From positions 1-64,000 of IMG/VR virus record IMGVR_UViG_3300046499_000680: a stretch of DNA of 64,000 bases. The stretch is one strand, 5' to 3'. Every line of letters begins with the position of its first letter. Position 1 is the stretch's first letter. Below are positions 396 through 55,893 of this stretch, in pieces. The notes below the pieces were generated by a model that was not told the DNA's origin, did no database searches, and saw nothing but the letters and a program-made list of their open reading frames with translations. Source of the stretch: a virus. Made by a program: the position numbers and the translations under genes.

Positions 396-610
396 TCTGC
401 TGCCGCGCCGACGCACCGGCCAGCGGTTGATAGGGAGACCGGGAAGCGTCGCGGGCGCGGCACGATCCTAGTCCGCTGAGTGCCGGAGCCGCTGCCGCCG
501 AGGCAGATGAAAGCGCGGCCACTTCTCCGGGGGGTTGAGGCAGGCCGTGGCCTCGGCGGGAGTGGCGCCCGACCGGCTTATCGTCCAACGCCAGTCGTAG
601 ATTAGGTCCG
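396..610 (+). other. Intergenic spacer before the capsid protease gene
   Basis: No plausible gene is seen in these 215 bases. The 3' part carries a TAGATT hexamer at about 599-604 that could be a -10 element for the capsid operon, but I see no convincing -35. The Shine-Dalgarno before the ATG at 611 is weak (TTAGGT). Confidence 0.3.
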
Positions 611-1939
611 ATGGGGAAGAAAATCGAGCCGACCTTCTTCGAGCGCGGGCAGAGCATCTTCCTGGTGGCCCCGGTCACCCCGCTGACCCCCGGCGCCGAG
701 GAGATCGAGCATTTCGCCTTCGCCGACCAGCTCAAAGCGACCGCGCCCAACGAGAACCTGCTGTGGCTGCGCGGCAACTACGTCGAGGCCGACAACCCCA
801 ACGCCAACGGCCACGTCTGGACGGCCGGGGAGCTGGGGATCAAGTCGCTGACCCCGATGTTCATGCCCGTCACGGTGATGCACGATCCCCGCACCGCCGT
901 CGGCCTGATCGCCGACACCGCGCTCAGGGTCCCCGAGAAAGACGACGTTCCACGCTCGCGCATCGAGACCGCGATGGCGCTTTGGCAGCACCGCTTCCCG
1001 GAAGTGTGCGAGGAGGCGATGACCAACTACAAAGCCGGATCGCTCATGCAGTCGATGGAGTGCCGGTCCCCCTGGTACACCTGCGCCGAGTGTGGTGAAA
1101 GTTTCCCGAAGCTCCTAGATGGTGCGGAGCGGAAGAACTGGTGTCAGCACATGCAGGCGTCGGACGGACATGGCGCTCGTATATTAGGAGATGTCACGTT
1201 CACCGGCACCGGACTCATCTTCGGAACGCGGGGGGCGAGAGGGGCTTACGACCAGGCCCACCTGGAGGTTTTCCAGGACGAGGTAGCAGAGTTTCACCAC
1301 AAGGCGCAGCACGACCGGCCAAGGAGAAAGAGGACTTCTACGATGGACCCAATCGAGATCAGTCGCGAGGAGTACGCCGAACTTCAGAAGCGCCCGACTC
1401 CCGAGGAGCTGGCGGCCGAGAAACTGCGCGCCGACAACGCGGAGACCGCCAAGGCCGAGGCCGAGCAGAAGGCCGAGGAGAAAGAGGCGGAGGCCCAGCG
1501 CGAGAAGGACCGCGCGGACGCCGCCGAGGCGAAAGTCACCGCCGCCGAGGAGGACAAGGCGAAGGACGACCTCGCCAAGGAGCGCCTGGGCAAGCTCGGC
1601 CAGGGCTTCCTCGCCAAGGTCGGCGACTTCACCCGCAGCCGGGTCGAGGACCAGGCGCGCACCCTCTCCGAGGAGGACTGGGAGGCTCGCCTGAAGGAAC
1701 TGGAGGAGTCCACGCAGGTCGCCCGCGACGAGGGCGGCCCGGCGGCTCCGGCCGACGAGGGGGCCAGCACGCCCCCGAGCGGTGGCGGCGCCAAACCGGG
1801 GGAGTTCTCCCGCGAGGAGGTCGCCCGCGCCCACGCCGGTAACGGCGGCGGTCCGAGCGGCGAGGAGCCGACCCCGGAGAAGCGCACCAGCGTCATGCGG
1901 GGCCTCATGCCCTCGAAAACCCCGACGGCGGCCGAGTAG
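611..1939 (+). CDS. Capsid maturation protease with C-terminal scaffold domain
   Basis: 442 residues. Residues about 45-165 resemble the actinophage capsid maturation (prohead) protease type: a GNYVEADN strand, a conserved MHDPRTAVG segment (His91) and a QSMECRS segment (Ser148), which I infer to be the catalytic His and Ser. A Cys158-x2-Cys161...Cys178-x-His180 cluster could bind zinc. From residue 245 the protein becomes a long, highly charged Glu/Ala/Lys-rich coiled coil typical of scaffolds, ending in a Gly/Pro/Glu-rich tail. It directly precedes the decoration and major capsid genes, as expected. It probably cleaves scaffold and capsid N-termini during head maturation. An internal start at 1343 may make scaffold alone. 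Confidence 0.75.
   Translation: MGKKIEPTFFERGQSIFLVAPVTPLTPGAEEIEHFAFADQLKATAPNENLLWLRGNYVEADNPNANGHVWTAGELGIKSLTPMFMPVTVMHDPRTAVGLIADTALRVPEKDDVPRSRIETAMALWQHRFPEVCEEAMTNYKAGSLMQSMECRSPWYTCAECGESFPKLLDGAERKNWCQHMQASDGHGARILGDVTFTGTGLIFGTRGARGAYDQAHLEVFQDEVAEFHHKAQHDRPRRKRTSTMDPIEISREEYAELQKRPTPEELAAEKLRADNAETAKAEAEQKAEEKEAEAQREKDRADAAEAKVTAAEEDKAKDDLAKERLGKLGQGFLAKVGDFTRSRVEDQARTLSEEDWEARLKELEESTQVARDEGGPAAPADEGASTPPSGGGAKPGEFSREEVARAHAGNGGGPSGEEPTPEKRTSVMRGLMPSKTPTAAE
1170..1190 (+). repeat. 21-bp direct repeat, copy 1 (inside protease gene)
   Basis: Identical over 21 bases to 7046-7066; the core reads GCGCTCGTATATTAGGAG. Here it lies within the protease coding region, encoding GHGARILG. 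It combines a TATATT hexamer with an AGGAG ribosome-binding-like motif. See the findings for its possible role. Confidence 0.8.
1343..1939 (+). CDS. Probable nested scaffold protein (internal start in the protease gene)
   Basis: An in-frame ATG at 1343 (MDPIEISREEYAELQ) is preceded by AAGGAGAAAGAGG, with AGAGG nine bases upstream. It begins exactly where the protease domain ends and the coiled-coil scaffold begins. The 198-residue product would be a free scaffold, as in the nested C/Nu3 arrangement of phage lambda. The nesting is inferred from the start signals and domain boundary. The protein has a charged coiled coil over about residues 15-110 and a disordered Gly/Pro/Glu tail. Confidence 0.5.
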   Translation: MDPIEISREEYAELQKRPTPEELAAEKLRADNAETAKAEAEQKAEEKEAEAQREKDRADAAEAKVTAAEEDKAKDDLAKERLGKLGQGFLAKVGDFTRSRVEDQARTLSEEDWEARLKELEESTQVARDEGGPAAPADEGASTPPSGGGAKPGEFSREEVARAHAGNGGGPSGEEPTPEKRTSVMRGLMPSKTPTAAE

Positions 1940-1980
1940 TACGGACCACCTGAGAGACCAGGAACAGGAGAAACGAACCA

Positions 1981-2526
1981 ATGACGCCGATCGTTAACCA
2001 GACCGCAGGTCCGTACCCCCTTACCGGCGTCGGCAAACTGCCGAACGTCACCCTCGCTTTCAACGACGGCGACCACTGGTCCAACCGCTTCGCGTCCGGC
2101 AACATCACCCCCGGCGTCGCCGTAGTCCCGGCCGCCAGCGCGGGGAAACTGTTCATGCGGACGGCCAATTCTTCCGACCCGGCCACCCAGCTCGCGATCG
2201 CGCTGCGGACGGTGGACGTGCCCGACCCGAACACCGGGCCGACGGCGCTGGGGCCGAACGAAATCCGCAACCAGGTCATCAAAGACGGGGAATACGTCCA
2301 CGCTTACTACAGGGGCGTGTTCCACCTGACTCTGGTGACCCCGGCGGCCTACAACCCCGGCGACCTGATCGGCTGGGATGCCGACGGTGCCCGGCCGAGC
2401 GGCAAGGAAGGTACGGGGGCCTGGGCGAAAAACTCTGCGGCCGACATCGACTCGATCTTCGAGGTGATGGAGTTCCGCAAAGTGAACGCAGAAAACGAGG
2501 GCATCCTGACCGTGAGGAAGCTCTAG
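1981..2526 (+). CDS. Capsid decoration / head protein
   Basis: 181 residues, start preceded by AGGAGAAACGAACC. The protein is rich in beta-type sequence (Val, Thr, Gly, Pro), with no long helices or membrane segments. It lies between scaffold and major capsid protein, the usual place for a decoration (stabilising) protein that binds the outside of the capsid shell. Segments such as GDHWSNRFASGN and LVTPAAYNPGDLIGWD fit a compact beta-barrel. The assignment is from position, size and composition, not from a diagnostic motif. A head fibre is an alternative. Confidence 0.55.
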   Translation: MTPIVNQTAGPYPLTGVGKLPNVTLAFNDGDHWSNRFASGNITPGVAVVPAASAGKLFMRTANSSDPATQLAIALRTVDVPDPNTGPTALGPNEIRNQVIKDGEYVHAYYRGVFHLTLVTPAAYNPGDLIGWDADGARPSGKEGTGAWAKNSAADIDSIFEVMEFRKVNAENEGILTVRKL

Positions 2527-2562
2527 TCGGCGGCTGAGGCCGAGAAAAGGACAAGGAGAACG

Positions 2563-3501
2563 ATGGACGCACTGATCTTCGACACGCTCAGCCGCATCAA
2601 CGCCGAGGAGGACACGGCGAAACGGGATGCCATGAAGCGGGAATGCAACGCCGACCTCGGCTCGCACTTCTCGCGCCACCCCTCCGAGCTGGAGGAGCTG
2701 GCCTACGACCTCCTGAACATCGCCTGGAGCGATGCGATGGTCGAGGACATCGTGCCTCAGATCATCGAGGTGAAAACGGTCGGTCTCGGCGAACCGGACT
2801 TCGTGGACGAGGACCTGCGTGGTCTTCGTGCCTACTGGCAGGGCAAAGGCGGCCAGATTCTCAGCGACATCATCCGCTACGAGCGGACCGTGATGCCGCG
2901 CGAGGAGATGGTGACCGCGCTCGACTTCCACCAGGACGAGATCAGCCTGGACTTCTGGGGCACCTTCGACAAGCTCGTCGGCCAGGCCCAGGAAAAGATC
3001 AGGCAGCTCCCGGTCACCCGGCTGATCGAACTGATCCAGGCGTCCATCCAGGGCGGGACCTTCTTCGGCTCCTTCGCCCTCTCCACCCTCACCGCAACGC
3101 AGGTGGACTCGGTGCTGGAGGAAGTTGCCCTCCGCTCCGACGGCGACGTGTCGATCCTCGGCACCCGGACCGCCGTGCGCCACCTCTCGAACATCGGCCT
3201 CACGTTCGGGATCAACGTCGCGGAACGCATCTTCAACACCGGCCAGGTCGGTCAGTACAAGGGCTACCCCGTCGTCCAGGTGGAGAACTTCCAGGACTTC
3301 GCGGGCACCTTCGTCCTGCCGAACAACGAAATCTGGCTCGTCGGCAAACGCGCCGGGCGGCTCACCTACTTCGGCGACACCGCCAAGGTGCAGCAGCTCC
3401 AGAAAGAGTCCTTCTACCGGCGCTGGGAGACCGGCCGCGACGCGGGAATGCTCCTCTACGGGGCGCAGCGCGGGCGCATCGGCCGGATCGTCCTGACCTA
3501 G
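2563..3501 (+). CDS. Major capsid protein (HK97 fold)
   Basis: 312 residues with a good ribosome-binding site (AAGGAGAACG before ATG). The N-terminal third is a charged helical segment followed by an E-loop-like stretch. The C-terminal half has the axial-domain pattern of HK97-type capsid proteins: GQYKGYPVVQVENF and NNEIWLVGKRAGRLTYFG. Position after scaffold and decoration genes agrees. The protein forms the icosahedral shell. It is slightly short for the family, consistent with a separate protease/scaffold gene rather than a fused delta domain. Confidence 0.85.
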   Translation: MDALIFDTLSRINAEEDTAKRDAMKRECNADLGSHFSRHPSELEELAYDLLNIAWSDAMVEDIVPQIIEVKTVGLGEPDFVDEDLRGLRAYWQGKGGQILSDIIRYERTVMPREEMVTALDFHQDEISLDFWGTFDKLVGQAQEKIRQLPVTRLIELIQASIQGGTFFGSFALSTLTATQVDSVLEEVALRSDGDVSILGTRTAVRHLSNIGLTFGINVAERIFNTGQVGQYKGYPVVQVENFQDFAGTFVLPNNEIWLVGKRAGRLTYFGDTAKVQQLQKESFYRRWETGRDAGMLLYGAQRGRIGRIVLT

Positions 3502-3582
3502 GAGACCTAGCGCGGCGTCGTCGTCTGGCGGCGCCGCTACGGTGAGGCGGCAACGGTCCAGACACGCTCAGGAGGAGTACAC

Positions 3583-4098
3583 ATGCCACAGGCCAAGACC
3601 GAGTTCAAGAACGCTTCGCCGGGGATCATCGGGGTCGTCACCCTCGAACCCGGTGGCAAAGAGGTCGCGATCCCCGTCAAACCCGGCGCCAGCGTCTGGC
3701 TCTCGGAGGACGAGCAGATCGCCACCGCCAACGCGCCCCAGCGCGACGAGGACAACCCCTTCATCAACGGCCAGCTCGTCAAGATCACCGACGCCGCCGA
3801 CATCAAAAACCGGCGGCCGATCGGCGACAACGCGGAGTCGCCGGAGGCGGCCGAGCAGAAGCGCGTCGCCGAGGAGAACGCGGCCCGGCTGAAAGCCGAG
3901 AACGAGGAGCAGGCCAAAACGGAGGCCGCCCGCCTGGCAGAGGGCCAGAAACAGGCCGCCGCCGGAGGGAAAGCGCCGCCGCCGCGCCAGGCCCCCGAGG
4001 AGACCGGCGCCGCTCCACAGCCCCAGGGCGCGACGGCCGAGGGCAGCCGCGCAGCGGGCGAGGAGGTCGGCACGCCGGAGGCGGTCGGGAAAGCGTAG
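3583..4098 (+). CDS. Head-region protein with charged Ala/Glu/Gln-rich tail
   Basis: 171 residues, start after AGGAGGAGTACAC. Residues 1-80 look like a small beta domain (FKNASPGIIGVVTLEPGG, IPVKPGASVWLSEDEQI). Residues 85-130 are a charged coiled-coil stretch and the rest is Pro/Gly/Ala-rich and probably disordered. It lies between the major capsid protein and the connector genes, so a minor head or connector-associated role is likely. I recognise no catalytic motif. Confidence 0.6.
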   Translation: MPQAKTEFKNASPGIIGVVTLEPGGKEVAIPVKPGASVWLSEDEQIATANAPQRDEDNPFINGQLVKITDAADIKNRRPIGDNAESPEAAEQKRVAEENAARLKAENEEQAKTEAARLAEGQKQAAAGGKAPPPRQAPEETGAAPQPQGATAEGSRAAGEEVGTPEAVGKA

Positions 4099-4104
4099 GT
4101 CTGA

Positions 4105-4758
4105 ATGGGCATCGCCTGTTTCCTCATCAAGCAGGGGCCGCAGGCGAAGCGCAGCCTTCGACGCTTTCACTTCGCCGAGGAGGGCGAGGAGTTCTGTCCC
4201 GGCACCGAGCGCAGCTACCACACTGCCTCGATCGAGATCGGGACCGTCCCCCTGGTCCTCGCCGAGCATGGCATGATCGCCTCGCTCGATCCCGCCGACT
4301 TCGCCGGGGACGAGCGCTGGCCGGTCACCTGCGAGAAGTGCCCCTACATCTTCACCGCCGAGGACCAGTGGCAGGTCAACCAGGACCCGATCTACCACGC
4401 CGACGACGGCCGCGAGATGACGCTGCGCGAGGCCCCGCCCGGCGCGATCTGGGAGGCGACCTGGATGGGCCGGGAGCATTGGGGCATCAACGGCGGCACC
4501 GGCCCGGCCTACGTCATCAAGCTCCCCAACGGCGCCGACTTCATCCCCGGCTCGGAGGCCAACAACTGCGACCGCAAAGGCGACGACCACGACTGCTGGT
4601 GCGTCCACGGCGAGGCGCCGGGCCTGACGATCGACAAGAACCCTGAGCCGGGCCGCTCGACCTGCTCGGCGGGCGGCGGCTCGATCTGGAGCGGCCAGGG
4701 CGGCGGCCCCGGCAAGGAATGGCATGGCTTCGTCACCGCCGGGGAGCTGGTCGGCTGA
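4105..4758 (+). CDS. Cys-rich head-region protein, probably zinc-binding
   Basis: 217 residues. Paired cysteines appear at CEKC (about residue 76) and again near the C-terminus in NNCDRKGDDHDCWCVHG and STCSAGGG, suggesting bound metal. The rest is a soluble, Trp- and Gly-rich domain with no catalytic signature. It overlaps the next gene by one base (TGATG), so it is translationally coupled to the connector genes. A structural or assembly function is inferred from position only. Confidence 0.6.
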   Translation: MGIACFLIKQGPQAKRSLRRFHFAEEGEEFCPGTERSYHTASIEIGTVPLVLAEHGMIASLDPADFAGDERWPVTCEKCPYIFTAEDQWQVNQDPIYHADDGREMTLREAPPGAIWEATWMGREHWGINGGTGPAYVIKLPNGADFIPGSEANNCDRKGDDHDCWCVHGEAPGLTIDKNPEPGRSTCSAGGGSIWSGQGGGPGKEWHGFVTAGELVG

Positions 4759-5357
4759 TGGGGCCGGTCACCGATCTCAGCGACGTTCGGGTCCTGATCC
4801 CGCGCATGCGCCGCGCGCTCGACGGGCCGGAAGCAACCGGCTCGGCGGCGGTGTCGGCGAAACTCAGCGACGACCAGGTGACGGCCGTGATCGCCGACGC
4901 GATCGCCGACGTGATCTTCTACAGCTCCGGCGCCTTCCCCCACAAGCTCGAAGTGGTCGAACGCGACACCGCCTACATGGCGCCGAGCGCCTGGAAGACC
5001 GACACGCCGATGTCCGAGGACGAGCAGTCCGTCATCGTCGCCCAGGCCGCCCTCAACTACTTCCTGAACAGCCTCTCGAACCTGAAATCCAGCGAGACCC
5101 TGAAAGAGGCCGACCGCGAATGGACCTGGGCCATCTCGGCGTCGGCGCTGGCCGAACGGGTCAAAGAGCTGCGCGCCCAGCGCGACAAAGCGGTCGAACT
5201 GCTCACCGCCCAGAACGTCATCGCCGAGGCGTGGATCAACACCCTCGAAGTGCGCGACCGCTACACCGACATGCTGATCGAGCCGTACCTGTCGAACATG
5301 GGCTTCTCGACCGGGATGGGCGGGAACGAATTCGACCCGCCGCTCGGGGGGCCGTAG
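4758..5357 (+). CDS. Head-tail connector (adaptor) protein
   Basis: 199 residues, using the ATG at 4758 that overlaps the preceding stop. The sequence is mainly helical (ADAIADVIFYSSG, DEQSVIVAQAALNYFLN, a long helix around ASALAERVKELRAQRDKA), matching the helical-bundle adaptor proteins that follow capsid genes. It would sit under the portal and start the head-tail interface. The call is from fold type and gene order; I see no unique motif. Confidence 0.55.
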   Translation: MGPVTDLSDVRVLIPRMRRALDGPEATGSAAVSAKLSDDQVTAVIADAIADVIFYSSGAFPHKLEVVERDTAYMAPSAWKTDTPMSEDEQSVIVAQAALNYFLNSLSNLKSSETLKEADREWTWAISASALAERVKELRAQRDKAVELLTAQNVIAEAWINTLEVRDRYTDMLIEPYLSNMGFSTGMGGNEFDPPLGGP

Positions 5358-5819
5358 ATGGAACCGGACCTGGCAGGCTTCCGCGACGCCAGCGTGCGCC
5401 TGCGGGGCGCGATGGGGCGCCCGCTCTGGTACATGACGCCGACGCCGACCACCTGGCCGCCGGGGACGGCGCTGGACCCCCAGAGCGGCCAGCCCTACGA
5501 CCCCACGATCGTGCCGCTGGCCTCCGGCTTCACCTCGGCGTCGGCGCAGACGCTGGTGGTCCTGCCCGGCGCCACCGACCGCGCGGCGAAGGACATCGAA
5601 GCTGCGATCGGCCGGATCGAGGAGGGCGAAGCCGCGCTTGTTATCGGCTCGGATGATTGGCAAAAACTTTCCCTGGAAGATGCAACGGGAGTTGTGATTT
5701 ACGACGACGACTGGGAGCTACGCGACGCGCGCTTCGATTCCGTCGGCGGCGCCGGGGATGCTGATCGGGTGATCGTGCATGCAGTTCAACGTTCACGAAC
5801 TATGAATCAGGGTTCGTAG
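5358..5819 (+). CDS. Head-tail connector / stopper-like protein
   Basis: 153 residues, starting directly after the previous stop. It is a small alpha/beta protein between the adaptor and tail-terminator-like genes, where head-completion (stopper) proteins usually lie. Its 3' half is AT-richer than its neighbours and carries an exact copy of the CAACGGGAGTTG element at 5683, spelled with unusual codons (gca acg gga gtt). Function is inferred from gene order. Confidence 0.5.
   Translation: MEPDLAGFRDASVRLRGAMGRPLWYMTPTPTTWPPGTALDPQSGQPYDPTIVPLASGFTSASAQTLVVLPGATDRAAKDIEAAIGRIEEGEAALVIGSDDWQKLSLEDATGVVIYDDDWELRDARFDSVGGAGDADRVIVHAVQRSRTMNQGS
5683..5694 (+). repeat. CAACGGGAGTTG element, exact copy
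   Basis: Exact copy in + orientation, preceded by G so that GCAAC pairs with GTTG(T) around a GGGA loop. It lies inside the connector gene and encodes ATGV with gca-acg-gga-gtt, codons uncommon in this genome. Confidence 0.75.
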
Positions 5820-5822
5820 ATC

Positions 5823-6302
5823 GTGATCCAGCGCAGCCAAAAGGTCGAACAGTCGGTCCAGGACTACCTCCGGGGCCTGATCTTCGGCGCCCAGAAATAC
5901 CCCGAAACGCAGGTCGAGCTGCTGGATGCCTGGGACGGGGAAAAGTTCGAGGGGGGCCTGGAGAAGAACTACATCGCGATGGGGTTCAACTTCGATGACG
6001 GTGGCAAAGAGGGCGAGACCGGCTCGAACCTCGTCCGCAAGCTCGTCACGATCGAGTTCTTCGTCGTCGCCAAGAACGCCACCTGGGGCCGCAACCTCTC
6101 GTCTGCGATCACGACGGCGCTGGAGTCCGATCGAGTGGTGCCGCTGAAGGACATCGGTGAACCCGGCGAGCCGGTCTTCGACGCCCTCCCCGTCATCAGC
6201 GTGTCCTCCGAGCATCAGCCCGTGGCCGATCCCAAACCGTGGCAGCGCTTCATCTGGACGGTTCACCTTCGGCTGGAGGATGAATACCTGGTGGTGCTGT
6301 AG
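5823..6302 (+). CDS. Tail terminator-like protein
   Basis: 159 residues, GTG start three bases after the previous stop. It has an N-terminal helix (VEQSVQDYLRGLIFG) and beta strands (NLVRKLVTIEFFVVA, WQRFIWTVHLRLEDEYLVVL), typical of small tail-completion proteins that cap the tail tube. Gene order (adaptor, stopper, terminator, then major tail protein) supports this. No catalytic residues are seen. Confidence 0.5.
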   Translation: MIQRSQKVEQSVQDYLRGLIFGAQKYPETQVELLDAWDGEKFEGGLEKNYIAMGFNFDDGGKEGETGSNLVRKLVTIEFFVVAKNATWGRNLSSAITTALESDRVVPLKDIGEPGEPVFDALPVISVSSEHQPVADPKPWQRFIWTVHLRLEDEYLVVL

Positions 6303-7046
6303 ATGGCCGACCCCTACCAGGGACCTTTCGAGGTCGGGGGCGGCGACGGCAGTGACTATTTCGTCGTGCTGCCACCGGAGCCGCTGCTGATCGACGCTTT
6401 CCTGACTCTGGAGAAGGCCCGCGTCGAGGCGCTGAAGAACCCCGACCGGGTGGAGGGTCGCGCCCAGGCCGCCGCCATCTCCCTCGTCATCGCGCAGGTT
6501 GGCGCCGACGTGGAGGCCGCCGCCATCCTCACCGCCAAAGAGGCCGAGGACATGATCCGGTCCCGCATCCACGCCACGCAGAAGCGTCCTGACCCCCCTG
6601 GTAAGTCTGCGGCCAAACGACTCAAGAGTGCGATCGTGGCACGCGCACTTCCCACGGTACTGCCGGGAGGCGGTGTCGGTGTGGGTGACATCTCGACCCT
6701 GAATGAAGTCGCCGACGCCCAGGGCCGTGCGTACTGGCGGGCGCAGGAGTTCGGTTCCTCGCACCTCGTCGGCCGGACCTTGCCCGGCTTCTTCCAGCCC
6801 GGCAACTCCCCGGCGGGCGCGGCGCCGTCGAGGACCCACCCGATCTTTGAAGTGACCAGCGGGCCGCCGATGACGATCCAGAACCCCATCCCCGAGCGGG
6901 CCTTCCTGCGCGAGGGCGCGGCGCTCGCCGAGGCGTTCCGCCAGCGGACGCTGGGCAGTGCGGTGGTGGGTGGAATCGGCGAGCTGCGCAAAATCGCCGC
7001 CGGAGCCTCTGCGAACCTGCCTGCGTTGCGCCGGATCGTTCGGTGA
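6303..7046 (+). CDS. Structural-region protein, unknown (head-tail or tail)
   Basis: 247 residues. Residues 25-90 are helical (DAFLTLEKARVEALKNPD, AAAISLVIAQVGADVEAAAIL); the C-terminal half is Gly/Pro-rich with a helical end. The position before the major tail protein suggests a neck or tail-completion role. Its stop codon overlaps the 21-bp repeat at 7046, marking a junction with the AT-richer gene that follows. Confidence 0.5.
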   Translation: MADPYQGPFEVGGGDGSDYFVVLPPEPLLIDAFLTLEKARVEALKNPDRVEGRAQAAAISLVIAQVGADVEAAAILTAKEAEDMIRSRIHATQKRPDPPGKSAAKRLKSAIVARALPTVLPGGGVGVGDISTLNEVADAQGRAYWRAQEFGSSHLVGRTLPGFFQPGNSPAGAAPSRTHPIFEVTSGPPMTIQNPIPERAFLREGAALAEAFRQRTLGSAVVGGIGELRKIAAGASANLPALRRIVR

Positions 7047-7066
7047 TGGCGCTCGTATATTAGGAG
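7046..7066 (+). repeat. 21-bp direct repeat, copy 2 (upstream of insert gene)
   Basis: Identical to 1170-1190. It begins at the last base of the preceding stop codon and ends with TATATTAGGAG, 25 bases before the next start. TATATT could serve as a -10 for the downstream small gene. Confidence 0.8.
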
Positions 7067-7090
7067 TGCAAGGCGAAGCAGGTAACAGGC

Positions 7091-7366
7091 ATGGACAGAG
7101 CCGAATACGTTCACAAACGCAAGAACCGATACATGGCTCAGTTCCTCGATTACTTCGAGGAGCATTGTGAGCCAAGGCTTCCGGCCGATGTGTCGGAAAA
7201 AGTCAAGATCGAAGCCCGGCGGAAATTCACTGCACTAGCTACGGACGTTTGTGAGCTGATCGAACTGAAAGACGAGGCGATGAACGGATTTGCGCGTGAC
7301 ATGAGGGACCAGGCCGAGAGGGCCGCCACCGCGCCTGCCGGTAGTCGCGACGAGGCCAGGAGCTAA
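7091..7366 (+). CDS. Small charged helical protein, moron-like insert
   Basis: 91 residues, almost entirely charged helix (AEYVHKRKNRYMAQFLDYF, EKVKIEARRKFTALATD). Its base composition is visibly AT-richer than the flanking tail genes, and it sits between a neck/tail gene and the major tail protein where no conserved gene is expected. It is preceded by the 21-bp repeat with a TATATT hexamer. I infer a late-acquired accessory gene (moron). Alternatively it is a diverged small tail-assembly protein. No family recognised. Confidence 0.6.
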   Translation: MDRAEYVHKRKNRYMAQFLDYFEEHCEPRLPADVSEKVKIEARRKFTALATDVCELIELKDEAMNGFARDMRDQAERAATAPAGSRDEARS

Positions 7367-7369
7367 CTC

Positions 7370-8614
7370 ATGTCGATTCGCGCAGGCAGCATCCTTCATC
7401 TCAGCGGCAACAACGTCATCGACCGCATCCAGCAGGCGGGTCTCGGGAACGTCAATCTCCCGATCGAGACCATCCGCGAGGTCGGCAACCGTCTGGTCGT
7501 GGACAAGATTCCGCAGGAGCCAGACTTCACCTTCTCCATGCAGGACCTCGATGTCTCGACCGACATCATGGCCTGGCTGACCGGCGCAGCGCCCGGCGGC
7601 AGCGGCTCGGCAGCCGCGCCCGGCGCCAGCGACCCGGAAGGCACGCAGTACAACTGGGTCGATTGCATCATGGTGAACATCCCGTCGCCCTGGAAGAAAC
7701 CGGAGAGCGGTTCGGCCGGGGTCATCGAGGCGGGCCACCTGATCCCCGGCTACTACCCCACCAAAGTCTCCTACAACTTCGGCGTCACCGACAACGCCAA
7801 CCAGACCGTCGAACTCTCCGGCGGCAGCTTCTACTACGGGAAAGGCTGCCCCCGCGAGGAGGACTTCGCAGGCAACGGGGCGACCAAAGCCTTCCTGACC
7901 TCCGAGCTGGCGGTCCACACCCGGCGCGGCGGCGCGGAAGGGACGGACTTCCGGTCGGTCTTCGGCGTCATCGTGGACGGCGAACTCCAGACCGAAGGCG
8001 TGGACTACACGGTCACGGGCGGGGCGGAATTCCCCGGCTCGACCGCCACGGTCACCTTCACCACGGCCCCCGAAAACGGCGCCGACATCCGCATCGCCTA
8101 CTTCACCTCGGTGGCCCATTCCTTCCCGCAGTCGGTCCACGCCAGCACGCTGACCAAGCCGGGCGCCGTCCGGGGCCGGAACATCCGGGTCCTGGTGGAC
8201 GGCGTTCGCATCGGCGGCATCCAGACGGCCACCCTCGAAGGGACCGTCGAAGGCGAAGTCGAACGCGAGCTGGGGACGGAAGACATCACCGGCCGCGTCG
8301 TCAACGGGACCGACACGAATGGCACCCTGACCATCCGCTCCAAGAACAAAGCCGCCTTCTTCTCCGTGATGAAAGCGCTCACCGGAGTGGACGGCGAAAA
8401 AGAGGTCTGGGGCTGGTTCAACAACAACACCGTCAAACTCGAAATCCAGATCGAGAACCCGAAGGACCCCAGCAAAATCATCAAGACCCTTCTGGTGGAA
8501 GACGCGAAGTTCCAGCCTCCCGGTACGCCTGCCCAGGTGAACCAGGCCACGGACTTCGCCTTCAACTTCAGCTCGGTGGAGGGCACCTTCGCCGAGGTCA
8601 AGGGCAAACCGTAG
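7370..8614 (+). CDS. Major tail (tube) protein
   Basis: 414 residues, start three bases after the previous stop, preceded by CCAGGAG. The protein is beta-rich with repeated strand patterns (VIVDGELQTEGVDYTVTGG, IRVLVDGVRIGGIQTATLEG) and an Ig-like insertion around residues 150-260. It directly precedes the tail assembly chaperone pair and the tape measure, the canonical position. A tube of this protein forms the non-contractile tail; no sheath gene is seen. Longer than the smallest tube proteins, probably because of the surface domain. Confidence 0.75.
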   Translation: MSIRAGSILHLSGNNVIDRIQQAGLGNVNLPIETIREVGNRLVVDKIPQEPDFTFSMQDLDVSTDIMAWLTGAAPGGSGSAAAPGASDPEGTQYNWVDCIMVNIPSPWKKPESGSAGVIEAGHLIPGYYPTKVSYNFGVTDNANQTVELSGGSFYYGKGCPREEDFAGNGATKAFLTSELAVHTRRGGAEGTDFRSVFGVIVDGELQTEGVDYTVTGGAEFPGSTATVTFTTAPENGADIRIAYFTSVAHSFPQSVHASTLTKPGAVRGRNIRVLVDGVRIGGIQTATLEGTVEGEVERELGTEDITGRVVNGTDTNGTLTIRSKNKAAFFSVMKALTGVDGEKEVWGWFNNNTVKLEIQIENPKDPSKIIKTLLVEDAKFQPPGTPAQVNQATDFAFNFSSVEGTFAEVKGKP

Positions 8615-33151: not shown

Positions 33152-33395
33152 AGTCGTCAAACGCCAGTATCCCTGCCGCTGGTTCGCATCCGACCCGAAG
33201 TCAACGAAGTGTCGGTCGTGCCAGCTCCTTCACCACGTCCGGCCCGACGGCACCGACACGACCTACTGCGGGCACCTCTGCCTGGAGGAGAACGGCTGGT
33301 ACGTCCTCGCCGACACGCACCCCGAGGACATCGACCAGCTCCAGCGCTGCACGGTCTGTTACTCGCGGCTCCCAGAGCAGGAGACCATCCTGTGA
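33141..33395 (+). CDS. Small Cys-rich zinc-finger-like protein
   Basis: 84 residues. Cysteines are paired as CRSC (about residue 24), CGHLC (43) and CTVC (70), suggesting one or two zinc sites. It overlaps the ASCH gene by 11 bases and the first glycosyltransferase by four (GTGA). It is probably an adaptor or nucleic-acid-binding protein. No family recognised. Confidence 0.6.
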   Translation: MNLEVVKRQYPCRWFASDPKSTKCRSCQLLHHVRPDGTDTTYCGHLCLEENGWYVLADTHPEDIDQLQRCTVCYSRLPEQETIL

Positions 33396-34189
33396 GTAAG
33401 CGACCGAAGCCGCTGGTGGTCATCCCGACCTACCTGACCAACGAGGAGGGCCGTCAGGCCACGGAAGACGCGATCACGTCGGTGCGGAAAACCGCTGGCG
33501 ATGGGGTCGGCATCCTGCTCGTTGACGACGGTTCGCCCGAGCCGGACCTGATGACCGAAATCGAAAACATGCAACTGGAGTTCGAGGTACACAGGAAGTC
33601 CAAAAACTCTGGATTCAGCAAAACCGTCAACGTCGGATTGAGGCGCGCGTTGCAGGAAGGTCGCGACGCGGTGCTGATGAACGCCGACGTGGAGATCATC
33701 ACGCCGGGCTGGGTCCGGCAGTTCCGCTCGACCCAGGACCAAAGCTCCCAACCGGCGGCCGTCGTCGGTGCGCTCCTGCTCTACCCGAGCGGCTTGATCC
33801 AGCACGGCGGCGTCTACTTCTCCCTGCTCACCCGCACCTTCGACCACCTCTACAAGTACGGGCCGATGAACCTGCCGGAGGCGCTGAAGAAAAGCATCTG
33901 CCCGGTCACCGGGGCGCTCCAGTACATCCGCCACCGGACCCTGGAGACCATCGGCCTCTACGACGAGAGCTTCTACATGGGGTGGGAGGACGTTGACTAC
34001 TGCCTTCGCGTCTTCGCGCACGGCGAGCAGTGCGTCTACAACCCCAACGTCCGCGCTTACCACTTCGAGTACATGTTCCGGGGCAAGCCTTCGCCGAAAA
34101 TTGCGGACTGGCAGGCGAAATCCTGGATGTACCTGTGCGAGAAGTGGAAGGATCAGAGCTTCAGCGACCTCGTTCCGACGATCTGGTGA
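33392..34189 (+). CDS. Family 2 glycosyltransferase (rhamnosyltransferase-like)
   Basis: 265 residues from GTG 33392. The GT-A fold is clear: LVVIPTYLTNEEGR, LLVDDGSPEP, the NSGFSKTVNVGLRRA block of rhamnosyltransferase-like enzymes, a metal-binding NADVEI (D-x-D type), and the acceptor-side GLYDESFYMGWEDVDYCLR. It would transfer an activated sugar to a glycan, protein or modified base. First of five glycosyltransferases in the block; no membrane segment, so cytoplasmic. A diverged copy of the repeated element is at 33572. Confidence 0.8.
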   Translation: MSKRPKPLVVIPTYLTNEEGRQATEDAITSVRKTAGDGVGILLVDDGSPEPDLMTEIENMQLEFEVHRKSKNSGFSKTVNVGLRRALQEGRDAVLMNADVEIITPGWVRQFRSTQDQSSQPAAVVGALLLYPSGLIQHGGVYFSLLTRTFDHLYKYGPMNLPEALKKSICPVTGALQYIRHRTLETIGLYDESFYMGWEDVDYCLRVFAHGEQCVYNPNVRAYHFEYMFRGKPSPKIADWQAKSWMYLCEKWKDQSFSDLVPTIW

Positions 34190-34200
34190 AAGGACAAGCG

Positions 34201-34920
34201 ATGCCGACCAACAAGAACTGGTGGGAATACGACGAGCTGCCCTCGGGGGAGCCGTACGACTGGGTAGGTCAGTCACACGGGGACTCCGCCGCCGCGCGCG
34301 GTGACTCGCCCTACGACAACCTCGACTTCCACCTCGACCTCGGCTGCGGCACCCTGCCCAAGGCCCGGCTGGGGATCGACCGCTTCCCCGGCAACGGGGT
34401 CGGGATGCTGCTGGACCTCGACGCGATGATCCCGGCGTCCTTCGGGACGCTGGACAGCGACGGCGAGAAGGTCCTTCAGCGCACGCTGGAAATGTTCAAC
34501 CAGATGGCGCTCGGCGGCGAGCGGTTCACCACCGGCCTGCCGTTCCCGACCGGCTCGATCGAGTCGATCATCAGCCACCACATGATGGAGCATCTGAGCA
34601 GCCGGGGATTCATCGCCCTGATTGACGAGTGCCACCGCGTGCTGAAACCCGGCGGCATCCTGCGCGCGATCACGCCGCTGTTCCCGTCGCGGTCGGCGGT
34701 CGAGGACCCCGATCACAAGCTCTGGATCATGGAGGGGACGTTCGAGACCTTCTGCGGCGCCCCCGACGGCTCGCACTGGCACGAATCGTTCTCGCGGCCC
34801 TACACCGAGAGCCGCTTCGAGATGGTGGACAAGGACTTCACCGCGCCCGTGTCGCCGGAGGAAGCCTGGGGCGACAACGACGTGCGGGAGATTCGCGTCG
34901 CGCTAAGGAAATACGAGTAG
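34201..34920 (+). CDS. SAM-dependent methyltransferase 1
   Basis: 239 residues, ATG after AAAGGACAAGCG. Class I methyltransferase features: HLDLGCGTLPKARLGID (motif I, binds SAM), MLLDLD (acidic residue), SIESIISHHMMEHL, and VLKPGGILRAITP. The short fold and HMMEHL segment resemble methyltransferases of sugar and glycan pathways. It lies between two glycosyltransferases, so O-methylation of a sugar is likely; DNA methylation is not supported by any target-recognition domain. Confidence 0.75.
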   Translation: MPTNKNWWEYDELPSGEPYDWVGQSHGDSAAARGDSPYDNLDFHLDLGCGTLPKARLGIDRFPGNGVGMLLDLDAMIPASFGTLDSDGEKVLQRTLEMFNQMALGGERFTTGLPFPTGSIESIISHHMMEHLSSRGFIALIDECHRVLKPGGILRAITPLFPSRSAVEDPDHKLWIMEGTFETFCGAPDGSHWHESFSRPYTESRFEMVDKDFTAPVSPEEAWGDNDVREIRVALRKYE

Positions 34921-35661
34921 ATGGACATATCCCTCCTGATAACGACGCACCAGCGCGCCCACCTGCTCGAACAGAGCCTGGACCGCCTGCTGGGGCTGAC
35001 GTTGCCCGCCGAGCTGATCGTCGTGGACGACGGCGGCGACGACGCGACGCCGGAGATCGTCGCCGAGTTCGGCACCCGATCGGGAGTGGAGACCACCTAC
35101 ATCTACACGCACAACCCCGGCGCCCAGCTCTGCTCGCACGCCCGCAACGTCGGGATCAAACGGGCGAAGTACGACTGGATCGTGACCTCGGAGCCGGAGC
35201 TGTGTTTTCGCACCGACGCGCTGGCGCAGTTCCCGGAACTCCAGTCGCGACATCCGAAGATGGTCATCTCGACCGGCCGAGTCTTCTTCGCCCCGGACGG
35301 CGCGGCGCCGGTCTTCGAGGGCGAGCCGGGCTGGGAGGTGGCCCACGTCTGGACCGCGCCGCACGCCGCGCTCTGGAAGCGGGAGTGGCTGCTGGCGGTC
35401 GGGGGCTGGGACGAGGGCTTCCCCGGCGCCTGGGGCTGGGATGACACCGACCTGCTGACCCGGCTCCGGCTCAGCGGCCACGGCCAGTACATCGCCCCGG
35501 AGATCGAGGCGGTCCACCTTTGGCATCCGCTCGGCGGCGACACCGACTCCCAGAACGAAGAATATTTCCGGGCAAGGTCGTTCATCGTTGACGAGTCAGA
35601 CCTGACCGATCTGGTCGCGAATAAGGAGGGGGAATGGGGAATCGCAAAACCCCGGCCGTAG
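34921..35661 (+). CDS. Family 2 glycosyltransferase
   Basis: 246 residues, start directly after the previous stop. ISLLITTHQRAHLLEQSL, ELIVVDDGGDD and NPGAQLCSHARNVGI are the nucleotide-sugar-binding half. VTSEPELCF replaces a canonical D-x-D with SEPE, so metal dependence or activity may be altered. The C-terminal GGWDEGFPGAWGWDDTDLLT is a strong family 2 acceptor-site motif. It overlaps the second methyltransferase by 28 bases. Confidence 0.75.
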   Translation: MDISLLITTHQRAHLLEQSLDRLLGLTLPAELIVVDDGGDDATPEIVAEFGTRSGVETTYIYTHNPGAQLCSHARNVGIKRAKYDWIVTSEPELCFRTDALAQFPELQSRHPKMVISTGRVFFAPDGAAPVFEGEPGWEVAHVWTAPHAALWKREWLLAVGGWDEGFPGAWGWDDTDLLTRLRLSGHGQYIAPEIEAVHLWHPLGGDTDSQNEEYFRARSFIVDESDLTDLVANKEGEWGIAKPRP

Positions 35662-36329
35662 ACCCGGCCGAGAAGTTCTACGCCGACCAGCTTCAGGCGG
35701 AGGTCGATACCTGGTGCATCGAGGACGAGGACCGGCGCCATGAGAAGTTGCAGCGCGAGCGCATCCGGCATCCGAAACTGATCCGGGACCTCAAACTCGA
35801 CCAGCTCGACACCCACCTGATGGACGTGCTGGAGATCGGCGGCGGCCCCTGCCCGGTCACCGACCTGCTGGAGTTCGACACGCGGATGGTGGTCGATCCC
35901 AACACCGACGACTATGCCCGCTACTTCCCCCTCAGCGAAACCGAACACTTCACGATGCGCGTGGAAGAAATGGGCGACGACTTCGAGGAGCGCTTCGACC
36001 TGATCGTCTGCACCAACGCGCTCGACCACGTTCAGATTCCGGTGGCGGCCGTGGACCGCATCCGCAAGATGGTGAGGCCCGGCGGCTACGTGGCGATCAT
36101 GTGCGCCGAGAACAACGCACTCACCAACCCCCACCCCTGCCACACTCACAACCTGACGGCGAAGCAACTGCATCGCTGGTTGGACCCTGAGTTCGAGACC
36201 TGCTGGGAGTTGAACTTCGCCGAGCATGGTTACCGCTACGGGTGGGTGGAATACCAGGGCAAACGCGGCCAGCCAGCCTTCGCCTTGCTGATGCGCAACT
36301 GTGCTGGATACCCCGAGAGGAGACCCTGA
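35634..36329 (+). CDS. SAM-dependent methyltransferase 2
   Basis: 231 residues, start within the previous gene after GGAGGGGGA. LMDVLEIGGGPCPVTDLL (motif I), MVVDPNTDDYARYF, FDLIVCTNALDHV and VRPGGYVAIM define a class I methyltransferase. The His-rich NPHPCHTHNLT block after motif VI is typical of sugar methyltransferase-like enzymes. Probably decorates the product of adjacent glycosyltransferases. Confidence 0.75.
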   Translation: MGNRKTPAVDPAEKFYADQLQAEVDTWCIEDEDRRHEKLQRERIRHPKLIRDLKLDQLDTHLMDVLEIGGGPCPVTDLLEFDTRMVVDPNTDDYARYFPLSETEHFTMRVEEMGDDFEERFDLIVCTNALDHVQIPVAAVDRIRKMVRPGGYVAIMCAENNALTNPHPCHTHNLTAKQLHRWLDPEFETCWELNFAEHGYRYGWVEYQGKRGQPAFALLMRNCAGYPERRP

Positions 36330-37069
36330 TGTTTGCCACCGCCTGCGTCCTGAGCTACGAACGGCCCGACTTCCTCAAACAGTCGATCGAGACCATGATC
36401 GCGAACGCCGACTGGCCGCTGGAGATCATCGTCCACGACGACGGCTCCCGCGACCCTCGCGTCAACGCCCTGCTCCAAGCCCTCCTCGCTGAAGGGAAAG
36501 TCTCGACGGTGATGCTCAACGCCCCCGGCCACAACGAGGGCCAGGGCATCGCGCTCAACCGGATGTTCAACGCCGCGCAGGGCGACCCGATCATCAAGCT
36601 GGACCAGGACCTGGTTTACCAGCCGGGCTGGCTGCGCGAGTCGGTCCACGTCCTCGAAGCCAACCGGGCGCGGATGCAGGACCCGAACAACCCGCTGGAG
36701 GGCGAGCCTGCGATCGGCGCGCTCGGCCTGTTCCGGTACCCGGCCGAGCCGGTGCGCTACGAGGACATGTTCATCCAGCACTGGGGCGGCGAGTGGGAGG
36801 AGTGCAAGGATTTCGTCGGCTCGGCGATGGTCATCCCCCGCGATGCCTGGGAGGCATTCGGCCCCTTCGACCACCACTCCGACGCCTTCGCCGAGGACCG
36901 CGAATTCAAGATGAAACTGCGGACTGAAGGGCTGGCGCTGGCGCTCCCGAGCGGCGGCGATCTGGTCGTCAACGTCGGCTTCGGCGTCGGTCCGTCAACC
37001 GTCGTCGTGGACCACGGCACCGTCGCCGGAATCCACCACGGACCACACATCATCGGAGGAGGAGCATGA
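36329..37069 (+). CDS. Family 2 glycosyltransferase
   Basis: 246 residues from the ATG overlapping the previous stop. TACVLSYERPDFLKQSIET, LEIIVHDDGSRD, IKLDQDLVYQPGWL (a D-x-D motif) and FGPFDHHSDAFAEDREFKMK are present in the expected order. Segment GHNEGQGIALNRMFN corresponds to the NxGxxxAxN donor-site block. Active-site residues appear intact. Overlaps the next gene by four bases. Confidence 0.78.
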   Translation: MFATACVLSYERPDFLKQSIETMIANADWPLEIIVHDDGSRDPRVNALLQALLAEGKVSTVMLNAPGHNEGQGIALNRMFNAAQGDPIIKLDQDLVYQPGWLRESVHVLEANRARMQDPNNPLEGEPAIGALGLFRYPAEPVRYEDMFIQHWGGEWEECKDFVGSAMVIPRDAWEAFGPFDHHSDAFAEDREFKMKLRTEGLALALPSGGDLVVNVGFGVGPSTVVVDHGTVAGIHHGPHIIGGGA

Positions 37070-38001
37070 ACACTGCCGTCGTCATCCCGGTGGGGCCGGG
37101 CCGCCTGGAGAACCTGGTGCAGGTCCTTCGCTGCCTCTCCCAGCAGACCGTCAAACCCGATCTCGTCGCCGTCATCTGCGACGGCCCCGAGGCCGCCTTC
37201 GAGGTCGATGGCGCCTATGACATCCCGCTCGCGGTCCTCCAGTCGAGCAAGCATGAGCCGGGCGAGGAGCAGCCACGCAACATCGGCGTCCGGCTCGTCC
37301 GCGATCTGGAAGGCCAGGGCAACCAGACCTTCAGCCACGTCTGGTTCCTCGACAGCGACGTGATCGTGGGGCCTGACTGCCTGGAGATGTACGAGGCGGC
37401 GATGCAGGCCGAGCCGATCGACCGAGTGATGGTCGGCCCCTACGACTGGATGCCGCCCGGCGTCCGCGAGCCGATGCCCGACCTGAAGAATGACCCGCGC
37501 TGGGTCAGCTTCGACACGCAGGAGCCGTGGGAGATGCTGCGCAACGATCTGTCTGCGGGGCTGGCCTGCTTCTCCGGCAACCTGATCTGGCCGATCGCGG
37601 AGTTCGAGCGGGTCGGCGGCTTCTGGAACGACCTGCACCACGGCCGCTGCGAGGACGGCGAGCTGGGCCTGCGCGCGGTCTCGATGCAGGTCCCGATCAG
37701 CTACGTCAAAGCCGCGCGGGGCTGGCACCTCTACCACGACTTCGACCCGGAGGTGGTAAAGGCTCGCAACGCCCGCGACGTGCCGATGCTCAACGAACGC
37801 CATCCGTGGGTCGAGGGCGCCGGGCTGTTCGTGGAGGACGCCGACGGCAAACGGTTCTCGGTCAGATGTCCCAACTGCCGTTGCGAGTTCCCGTCGTCGC
37901 AAATCTGGGCGCACAAGGCCGACTGCATCACGCCCGGCGAAGACGAGCCGATCCCGGATGACGCACCTCGCGATTGGGGCGAGGGCGAGGGTCCGAAGTG
38001 A
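37066..38001 (+). CDS. Family 2 glycosyltransferase with C-terminal zinc finger
   Basis: 311 residues, ATG after CGGAGGAGG. AVVIPVGPGRLENLVQVL, FLDSDVIVGPDCL (D-x-D) and VGGFWNDLHHGRCEDGELGL make a family 2 enzyme. It has an unusual C-terminal extension: CPNCRCEFPSSQIWAHKADC (about residue 266) with a C-x2-C...H-x3-C zinc finger, which could bind nucleic acid or the acceptor. That module makes a DNA or nucleoprotein acceptor worth considering. Confidence 0.75.
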   Translation: MNTAVVIPVGPGRLENLVQVLRCLSQQTVKPDLVAVICDGPEAAFEVDGAYDIPLAVLQSSKHEPGEEQPRNIGVRLVRDLEGQGNQTFSHVWFLDSDVIVGPDCLEMYEAAMQAEPIDRVMVGPYDWMPPGVREPMPDLKNDPRWVSFDTQEPWEMLRNDLSAGLACFSGNLIWPIAEFERVGGFWNDLHHGRCEDGELGLRAVSMQVPISYVKAARGWHLYHDFDPEVVKARNARDVPMLNERHPWVEGAGLFVEDADGKRFSVRCPNCRCEFPSSQIWAHKADCITPGEDEPIPDDAPRDWGEGEGPK

Positions 38002-39065
38002 ACGAGGAGCTGGACATCTCGCGCGACGTGCTATTCGTCGGCCTCGGGGCCTCGCCGGTCTGTTACTACCGGGCGATGCTCCCGGCGATGGCCCTCGGCG
38101 CCGACTGGATCGGGCTGAACGGCGAGCCGCCGAAACTGGGCTGGGCGACCGGCCTGGCGAAGGACGAGAACGGCGTGCCGCAGTCGGCGATGCCGGACCT
38201 GTTCCGCTACAAGATCGTCGTCCTCCAGCAGCCGCAGGGACCGAACTGGGTGAAGCTGATCCGTGGCCTGCGCGAGGCTGGGGTGAAAGTGATCTTCGAG
38301 ATTGACGACTACCTCCACGGGATCAAGCACCTGGAGGATCACGACTGGTCGGACAAGTTCGACAACGAGGTGCTGAATCGCTACGAGGAAGCGATGAAAG
38401 CGTGCGACGCGCTGATCGCCTCGACGGAGTGGATCAGGGGCAACTACTCCCACTTCAACAAGCACGCCTTCCTCTGCCAGAACGGCATCGACCTGGGCCG
38501 CTACAAACTCACTCGCCCCAAACGCGACACGGTGAACGTCGGGTGGGCGGGGGCGACCGGGCACCTGAAAGCCATCACCCCCTGGCTCCAGCAGCTCGCC
38601 AACGTGATGCAGGCCAACCCCAACGTCAACTTTGTCAGCATCGGGCAGACCTTCGCCGACGGCTTCAAACCCCACTTTGGCGAGGAGCGGTCGGTGGCGG
38701 TGCCGTGGGCCGCGATCGAGCAGTACCCCAGCGCGATGACCATGTTCGACATCGCGCTGGCGCCGGGCGGCTCCGGCGGCTGGTGGCGCGGCAAGTCCGA
38801 CCTGCGCTGGCTGGAGGCGGGCGCCCTCGGCATCCCCATCATCGCCAACCCGGAGGTCTACCCCGAAATCGAGGACGGCGTGACCGGCATGTTGGCGCGC
38901 AACCCCGAAGACGTGGCGGAAAAGCTGTTCGGCCTGATCGGCGACAAGAGGCTGCGAGAGAAGGTCGGCGAGCAGGCCCGCGAGTTCATCACCGAGAACC
39001 GGAGCATGAAACAGGTCCGGGAGCAGTGGGTGCAGGCGTTTATGGCCGTCGTCAGCGCTGAGTAA
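37998..39065 (+). CDS. GT-B-fold glycosyltransferase
   Basis: 355 residues, GTG start overlapping the previous stop. Two Rossmann-like halves: the N-terminal half (VLFVGLGASPVCYYRAMLPA) and the C-terminal donor domain with VNVGWAGATGHLKAI and EAGALGIPIIANPEVYPEIE, the glutamate-containing donor-binding loop of GT4/GT1 enzymes. FEIDDYLHG (about residue 106) is typical of phage and capsular members. It completes the five-enzyme block. Confidence 0.75.
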   Translation: MNEELDISRDVLFVGLGASPVCYYRAMLPAMALGADWIGLNGEPPKLGWATGLAKDENGVPQSAMPDLFRYKIVVLQQPQGPNWVKLIRGLREAGVKVIFEIDDYLHGIKHLEDHDWSDKFDNEVLNRYEEAMKACDALIASTEWIRGNYSHFNKHAFLCQNGIDLGRYKLTRPKRDTVNVGWAGATGHLKAITPWLQQLANVMQANPNVNFVSIGQTFADGFKPHFGEERSVAVPWAAIEQYPSAMTMFDIALAPGGSGGWWRGKSDLRWLEAGALGIPIIANPEVYPEIEDGVTGMLARNPEDVAEKLFGLIGDKRLREKVGEQAREFITENRSMKQVREQWVQAFMAVVSAE

Positions 39066-39395: not shown

Positions 39396-40016
39396 ATGCA
39401 CGCTCAGACCGCATCAGACCCGAAGCTAATCCGCCGCTATGAAGGTGTGGTGCGAACGACCGCCTCGATGACTGTGGAACGGTGCGAGGAAGAATTCGAG
39501 GACATCTGCCAGCTCTTTCGGATCAAGGTGTGGATGGCCTTACTGAGCTATGACCCTGCGAAGCTGACCAACGAAAAACCTGACGCCAAGGGTCGTACTC
39601 CTCTGGACAGGTACGTCTTCGCCTGCATCAAAAATCAGCAGAAGGACCTCGAAAAGAAAGTGAAGCACGCCCACCGAGTGACCTATATCGAGGGTCTGGA
39701 CAAGGGGCACGGTGAGCGGTTCGAGGCAGAGTTCCTGGCGGTCTCCGACGAAACGATGTTCATCGCCGCCGAAGACATCGCCCCGCTGATCCCCTCGACG
39801 CTGGACGAGCGCGAGCGCCGGATCGTCACCCTGCTCTACATGGACTTCGACAACGGTGAGATCGGCGACCGGCTCGGCATCAAACGGAAGCAGGTCGCGA
39901 CGATCATCCGGGGCATCCGGGAGAAGCTGGCCGACTGGGCGCCCACGGGCTGGCGGTCGGCGACGGAGCCGCCCCCGCTGGCCCCCGCGTCCGAGCCGAT
40001 GCCGATCGCCGCCTAG
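39396..40016 (+). CDS. Sigma-70-like regulatory protein
   Basis: 206 residues from ATG 39396; the frame also has an ATG at 39324 but that would translate the terminator-like hairpin. An N-terminal helical region (RYEGVVRTTASMTVERCEEE, IKVWMALLSYDP, RYVFACIKNQQKD) resembles sigma region 2. The C-terminal helix-turn-helix is classical region 4: LDERERRIVTLLYMDFDNGE, then IGDRLGIKRKQVATIIRGIR. It probably redirects RNA polymerase or binds DNA, for example for late transcription. Neither start has a good ribosome-binding site. It converges on the next minus-strand gene with a four-base overlap. Confidence 0.65.
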   Translation: MHAQTASDPKLIRRYEGVVRTTASMTVERCEEEFEDICQLFRIKVWMALLSYDPAKLTNEKPDAKGRTPLDRYVFACIKNQQKDLEKKVKHAHRVTYIEGLDKGHGERFEAEFLAVSDETMFIAAEDIAPLIPSTLDERERRIVTLLYMDFDNGEIGDRLGIKRKQVATIIRGIREKLADWAPTGWRSATEPPPLAPASEPMPIAA

Positions 40017-51242: not shown

Positions 51243-51246
51243 CGGA

Positions 51247-55862: not shown

Positions 55863-55893
55863 GTTGCGATACCTCCATGTCGGGTTTCACGGG

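Follow-up and report, generated by a model that had tools for sequence, protein, structure and literature searches.

The first 64,000 bases (here called the window) of the 83,201-base virus record IMGVR_UViG_3300046499_000680 from IMG/VR raise the question of why one sequence of 21 bases, ATGGCGCTCGTATATTAGGAG, occurs twice around the head genes, once within a putative protease gene. Since the ends of the record overlap by 127 bases, the record represents a complete circular genome of 83,074 bp. A sequence-only reading of the window had noticed the repeat and explained it as a moron promoter, as a recombination scar from the acquisition of 7067-7366, or as a site that could delete 1191-7066. 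The repeat itself was confirmed. ATGGCGCTCGTATATTAGGAG is the same at 1170-1190 and 7046-7066, with different neighbouring bases on both sides, and a search of the window for an 18-base core, allowing up to 3 mismatches, gave no match besides these two, against a chance expectation of 0.01. Its surroundings had also been described correctly: copy 1 lies inside the open reading frame (ORF) 611-1939, copy 2 begins with the final base of the stop codon TGA that closes ORF 6303-7046, and the gene behind copy 2 is AT-richer, with a G+C content of 0.565 versus 0.658 for the record. As for its meaning, we propose that the repeat consists of two copies of a family of phage late promoters, probably read by the phage's own sigma factor, an explanation that we regard as likely.

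When further copies were searched for, as the sequence-only reading had suggested, four were found besides copies 1 and 2. The pattern TCGTANATTAGG occurs at positions 595, 1177, 7053, 73995, 75702 and 81357 of the record, the last three outside the window, and a scan of the record with at most 1 mismatch placed all six sites on the + strand and none on the - strand. Its core CGTANATTA occurs 6 times in the complete genome, always on the strand of the late genes, and no site with the exact core lies between 7.1 and 73.9 kb of the record. At two mismatches, the window holds 8 TCGTANATTAGG matches versus 3.2 expected, the five extra ones being chance-like. The sites precede the genes for the putative protease (ATG 611), a protein of 91 amino acids (aa) (7091), a small protein (74027), a 93-aa protein with a GTG start (75717) and the portal, and the sixth is the copy within the protease gene. 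The third copy, at 595-606 and directly upstream of ATG 611, is not contained in the sequence-only reading.

The occurrence of the motif was followed in relatives of this phage. Homologues of the capsid protein were found in 34 loci from viral contigs and in one locus on a contig titled Actinomycetota MAG (metagenome-assembled genome); the nearest named phage found was Caudovirales GX15bay from mangrove soil, with identities of 27% for the capsid protein and 33% for the terminase. The exact core CGTANATTA was present at 83 sites in 14 of 15 records, on a single strand in each record, versus 1 site for a reversed-pattern control, and GX15bay was the one of the 15 records without it. At one mismatch, TCGTANATTAGG had matches in 18 of 20 records, including a single chance-like match in GX15bay and those in the 38.9-kb contig of locus L017, which was rejected as a motif carrier since its one forward and one reverse match were taken for chance. 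In a set of 664,752 bases made up of 43 stretches (42 loci, some of them overlapping, and this genome), 160 motif matches lay on the + strand versus 0 on the - strand, in 129 distinct contexts. Each context was assigned to the first late-gene homologue starting within 700 nucleotides (nt), a few of which are 130-500 nt off with other genes between. By this assignment, 29 contexts were inside the protease gene, 25 before it, 22 before the portal gene and 17 before the 91-aa gene; the rest were before the homologue of ORF3583 behind the capsid gene (10), the tail gene (5), the ORF4105 homologue (4) or single other genes (4), or stayed unassigned (13). A scan of viral contigs for the exact 16-base motif yielded 11 stretches, 4 of them on three contigs of this group, 6 in one other common context (L013, L014, L016, L018, L019 and L020) and the last one being L017.

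A weighted logo of the 100 sites outside the protease gene showed a single block, T-C-G-T-A-N-A-T-T-A-G-G, with the -10 type hexamer TANATT and no -35 element. Counting as start codon the first ATG or GTG that opens a frame of 60 codons or more, and leaving aside 1 of the 100 sites that was cut by a contig end, the first start codon was located 6-8 nt past the hexamer in 47 of 99 sites, versus 3.6% at random positions of the same loci. By distance, 53 of these sites were near their start codon (5-9 nt), 35 were far from it (at least 17 nt) and 11 belonged to neither class. A Shine-Dalgarno-like tetramer at -17 to -5 was found before 2 of the 53 near starts versus 22 of the 35 far starts; when the count was extended to -1, so that the motif's own AGG was included, the numbers were 13 of 53 and 22 of 35. 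As a class, the 53 of 99 sites at 5-9 nt display the features of leaderless promoters, TANNNT 5-9 nt before the start codon and no Shine-Dalgarno sequence. The GG of the motif is at +9/+10 in 33 of the 53 near and 23 of the 35 far starts and, being as common in one class as in the other, probably does not serve ribosome binding. Both classes would be accounted for by transcription beginning about 7 nt past the hexamer, with leaderless mRNAs in one and short-leader mRNAs in the other. T occupies the free position N of CGTANATTA in 16 of the 22 tail-block sites versus 2 of 57 sites at the portal, protease and post-capsid places, counts that are uncorrected for kinship; this excess before the tail block is possibly a mark of promoter strength.

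The copy inside the protease gene allowed us to compare the motif with the codons that contain it. Among 48 protease sequences (several loci being on one contig), 7 had no match over the stretch of the site, and CGTANATTA fell on the same codons in all 41 matches, which read CGT ATA TTA in 37 cases, CGT AGA TTA in 2 and CGT ACA TTA in 2. In the 29 distinct contexts, the arginine codon is CGT and the leucine codon TTA in 29 of 29, and the residue between them is Ile (26), Thr (2) or Arg (1), the second codon base alone varying. An invariant leucine ten codons downstream uses 4 codons and most nearby invariant residues use several; one nearby invariant phenylalanine is TTC in all 29 contexts. 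Moreover, TTA accounts for just 3 of 2073 leucine codons in 126 called genes, the one of the protease site included, as counted with a simple gene caller that favours common codons. A fixed CGT-ANA-TTA in spite of a changing middle residue, together with the rarity of TTA, indicates selection on the nucleic acid and not on the protein. All 29 contexts have an in-frame nested start codon (26 ATG, 3 GTG), preceded by a Shine-Dalgarno-like tetramer and located 50-66 codons downstream of the site. We read the nested frame as a scaffold gene, which the buried promoter would feed together with the capsid gene. In phage lambda, the scaffold Nu3 is translated from an in-frame start within the protease gene C, and the nested scaffold start within a protease gene is common to both cases; the phages studied here differ in that their protease codons also contain a promoter-like element, placed 50-66 codons ahead of the nested start in all 29 contexts.

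The motif is thus conserved at the level of the nucleic acid, has one orientation, recurs at the same places around virion genes and keeps its spacing to start codons. It is virtually certain that it is a conserved cis element and very likely that it is a promoter; that a sigma-like factor of the phage reads it we consider rather likely. According to this explanation, TCGTANATTAGG, with its core CGTANATTA, the hexamer TANATT and no -35 element, would start late transcripts in this group of phages, the host RNA polymerase core with the phage sigma (39396-40016) recognising the motif and initiating 6-8 nt past the hexamer. At the protease and portal genes, the start would fall on or beside the start codon and give a leaderless mRNA, and mRNAs of the 91-aa and tail genes would begin with about 20-35 nt of leader, which often contains a Shine-Dalgarno sequence. 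From the copy within the protease gene, the nested scaffold start and the capsid genes downstream of it would be transcribed separately, and the abundant head proteins would thereby be made apart from the protease. In its broadest form, the proposal would place the whole virion programme under a single strict class of -10-only promoters, recognised by the two-domain sigma of the phage itself, with leaderless portal and protease genes, capsid assembly set by a promoter in the protease codons, these codons fixed by the DNA motif and not by the protein, and the sigma and the base next to the core having changed together; for this complete version the balance is even.

The candidate recognition factor is a protein of 206 aa. 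Its Sigma70_r4 Pfam match of 24.8 bits, just above the cut-off of 24.1, points to a region 4 helix-turn-helix, and PHROG sigma family 1740 matches across residues 11-161 (E 1.4e-5). In the structure model, residues 1-90 resemble sigma domain 2 (Z 8.9, 2.4 Å over 77 residues), a score below the Z of 13 advised for helical folds, and residues 130-183 resemble the -35-binding domain of SigD (Z 7.3, 2.1 Å over 54), to which response-regulator helix-turn-helix domains score alike; the comparison tool rates Z values of this order as middling. Judged by title or chain, the best 50 of 479 Foldseek matches were sigma factors or chains of initiation complexes that we took for sigma. A homologue was present in 11 of 14 records, which are all 11 of at least 63 kb, with identities of 32-45% in ten relatives; in G010 and G012 the match ranges contain one TAG, and the frames read there are open over 206 and 188 aa. 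No homologue was detected in GX15bay by a search that recovered two known positives, and neither a single-sequence scan nor tblastn against named phages gave sigma relatives. A scan with an alignment found 7 loci, all of them in already-known records of this group. At the position preceding the core, six records have T, the four that form one sigma clade (support 0.98) have G, and G011 is mixed; the sites compared were 1 of 6 in G004, 4 of 6 in G012, 2 of 2 in G005 and 4 of 4 in G007.

Several observations weigh against this explanation. Both the start sites and the recognition by the sigma are deduced from sequence alone. At one mismatch, G007 and G008 have one opposite-strand match each and the reversed control had 4 matches over 20 records, and 2 of the 69 sites of the 11 large records (G002:47969 and G011:84018) are far from virion genes. 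The tetramers before the nested start may partly reflect codons rich in Arg and Lys, and the conserved position of this start is the better evidence. As to the sigma-like protein, Pfam region 2 remained under its cut-off (E 0.087), the model is of medium confidence (predicted local distance difference test 72, predicted template modelling score 0.43), and 1 of the 479 Foldseek matches had an E-value of 0.001 or less, with listed template modelling scores of 0.13-0.35, low values being expected if the two domains are placed freely. No homologue was found in the motif-bearing fragments G006, G008 and G013, nor in the motif-bearing G014-G018 (17.8-29.6 kb), which were searched without a positive control; together these fragments span 17.8-42 kb in length and may be truncated. 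The covariation of base and sigma clade comes from one clade and part of the sites, with G011 mixed. It fits joint change but equally shared ancestry, so that we can only infer that the sigma reads the motif. Copies 1 and 2 also have 9 common bases beyond the motif, which the motif does not explain, and the pair 596/75703 has 6; these could stem from past copying of one site into another or from a local preference.

Other readings of the motif have to be compared with a promoter for the phage sigma. The same -10-only promoter might be read by the housekeeping sigma of the host, of the actinobacterial TANNNT type, or by a host sigma with another phage activator. TANATT conforms to the mycobacterial hexamer, and in Mycobacterium tuberculosis TANNNT promoters lack a -35 element, often have CGN ahead and drive many leaderless mRNAs, according to the available part of PMC3898074; one relative, moreover, is on the contig with the Actinomycetota title. 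The core is, however, far stricter than TANNNT and almost confined to the surroundings of late genes, and the sigma gene accompanies the motif in all 11 large records. By our gene calls, TANNNT lies 5-9 nt before the start of 1 of 86 non-late and 3 of 39 late genes of this genome (one of them being the motif), so that such starts are not general here, and we regard reading by a host factor as unlikely. An RNA-level element, either a processing (cleavage) site or a translation-initiation element of late mRNAs, would agree with a motif that is always on the sense strand, often stands right before the start codon and contains AGG, and with the 13 of 53 near starts that have a tetramer once this AGG counts. 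It would have to work at two quite different distances from the start codon and also 150-200 nt before the nested start, with GG equally frequent at far and near starts, which makes it improbable. A promoter for a T7-like polymerase was not retained: no large gene for such a polymerase was seen, the longest called gene outside the virion block coding for 543 aa, and PF00940, the single-subunit phage polymerase, matched in 0 of 11 records in a search that was uninformative as its controls were also unmatched.

If the motif were instead bound by some other protein, as an operator, packaging or silencing site unrelated to the start of transcription, it would likewise be short, conserved and present in several copies per genome, but it has a single orientation and, at many genes, a constant distance of 6-8 nt from the start codon, which leaves this reading highly improbable. 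The explanations of the sequence-only reading can be judged from the 91-aa gene, which has homologues in 19 loci besides the window. In 16 of them, the homologue precedes the tail gene homologue by 258-293 nt, as in the window, with the protease and capsid genes upstream and the motif ahead of it. In L058, L063 and L065, weaker homologues occupy another place, some 1.5 kb past the capsid gene, and no motif was found before that of L063. With a moron or a scar, one would expect relatives to lack the inserted gene at this place, and the 91-aa gene is present there in the 16 loci. Of the proposed moron promoter (TATATT), the promoter is therefore retained and the moron abandoned, since gene and motif stand alike in these loci. 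A scar of the acquisition of 7067-7366 and a deletion site for 1191-7066 could draw on the 21 shared bases, for which past copying of one copy into the other is possible; nevertheless, the 16 loci keep the protease and capsid genes between both places, the motif occurs at further places of each genome, and a deletion would remove the capsid gene. Relatives with one copy and no small gene, or with unrelated sequence at both places, which the sequence-only reading had named as counter-evidence, were not found in the 16 loci. Scar and deletion site can both be set aside almost entirely, and the late promoter family remains the preferred explanation.

Late promoters of phage T4 have no -35 element and are read by the phage factor gp55, according to an excerpt of PMC2988020. 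Common to T4, as described there, are a phage-encoded recognition factor, here a proposed one, and a short element one turn before the transcription start, used for late genes, and the logo of our motif is of this -10-only form without a -35 element. Unlike in T4, the element is CGTANATTA and not the T4 TATA box, many starts look leaderless, and the factor has a region 4, whereas the T4 late polymerase is described in that excerpt without an equivalent of sigma region 4, which separates the present factor from the T4 type. TANNNT promoters without a -35 element and with many leaderless mRNAs are described for mycobacteria in the accessible part of PMC3898074, and a -10 motif adjoining leaderless genes for Deinococcus in that of PMC12340547. 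As far as these parts go, the likeness consists of a -10 hexamer placed shortly ahead of the start codon, with neither a Shine-Dalgarno sequence nor a need for a -35 element; those are cellular promoters, whereas here the motif is stricter, almost restricted to late genes of phages and accompanied by a sigma-like phage gene. The present case would combine the two kinds in phages, promoters read by a phage factor and leaderless TANNNT-type promoters. Among the matches listed in the open-licence literature (titles and beginnings of abstracts), we recognised no description of the motif or of a phage sigma with leaderless late genes, which is no proof of absence. For this group of uncultured (soil) phages, the results supply a promoter class together with a candidate for the factor that recognises it. 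They also offer a clean case of a regulatory element that overrides codon choice within a gene, and a basis on which the late transcripts of such phages could be predicted from sequence alone.

Table. Promoter copies and genes of the late region and the sigma-like factor (positions of the record; the window covers 1-64,000)
Feature	Position	Strand	Remarks
Putative portal gene	81373 to 395		in frame across the circle junction; weak PHROG match, E 0.0095
Promoter copy 0, TCGTAGATTAGG	595..606	+	hexamer TAGATT 598-603; 7 nt to ATG 611, predicted leaderless protease start
Putative head maturation protease with C-terminal scaffold-like part, 442 aa	611..1939	+	weak match to phrog_18299, E 0.0041
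Promoter copy 1, inside the protease gene	1170..1190	+	codons CGT ATA TTA; hexamer TATATT 1180-1185; start at about 1192-1194 predicted from spacing
Nested in-frame scaffold-like reading frame	1343..1939	+	ATG 1343 with Shine-Dalgarno-like tetramer; scaffold function suggested by position
Small head gene, decoration-like by position	1981..2526	+	no PHROG match; predicted on the transcript from copy 1
Putative major capsid protein	2563..3501	+	role from position; PHROG matches are families of unknown function; predicted on the copy 1 transcript
Promoter copy 2, before the 91-aa gene and tail gene block	7046..7066	+	hexamer TATATT 7056-7061; predicted start at about 7068-7070, leader about 20 nt
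91-aa gene, conserved before the tail gene	7091..7366	+	likewise placed in 16 other loci
Tail gene, tube-like by position before the tape measure gene	7370..8614	+	no PHROG match
Sigma-like factor, 206 aa, proposed promoter-recognising factor	39396..40016	+	PHROG, Pfam and structure model

Good PHROG matches were obtained for the terminase (E 1.7e-8), the endolysin (2.4e-30) and the tape measure protein (1e-15). Several glycosyltransferase-like genes, recognised by eye only, occupy 33392-39065 of the window, directly upstream of the sigma gene. A collagen-like protein with GPP repeats and an N-terminal hydrophobic stretch (record 75995-76633, L028:12494-13132) adjoins the 93-aa gene that bears a promoter site. 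The phage is probably temperate, given a tyrosine integrase at 41663-42670 of the window (Phage_integrase, E 1.3e-19). A RuvB-like gene is located at 45781-46689, and genes with a VWA domain and for a MoxR-type AAA protein, an unusual pair for a phage, lie near each other on the - strand at 49019-52458. The divergent intergenic stretch 55865-56260 holds three exact copies of GTGTTCACCCC (one on the + strand, two on the - strand), embedded in a longer unit resembling ACCGNNAGTGTTCACCCC, and additional degenerate copies were noticed by eye; placed between early operons, the stretch looks like an operator array or replication iterons.

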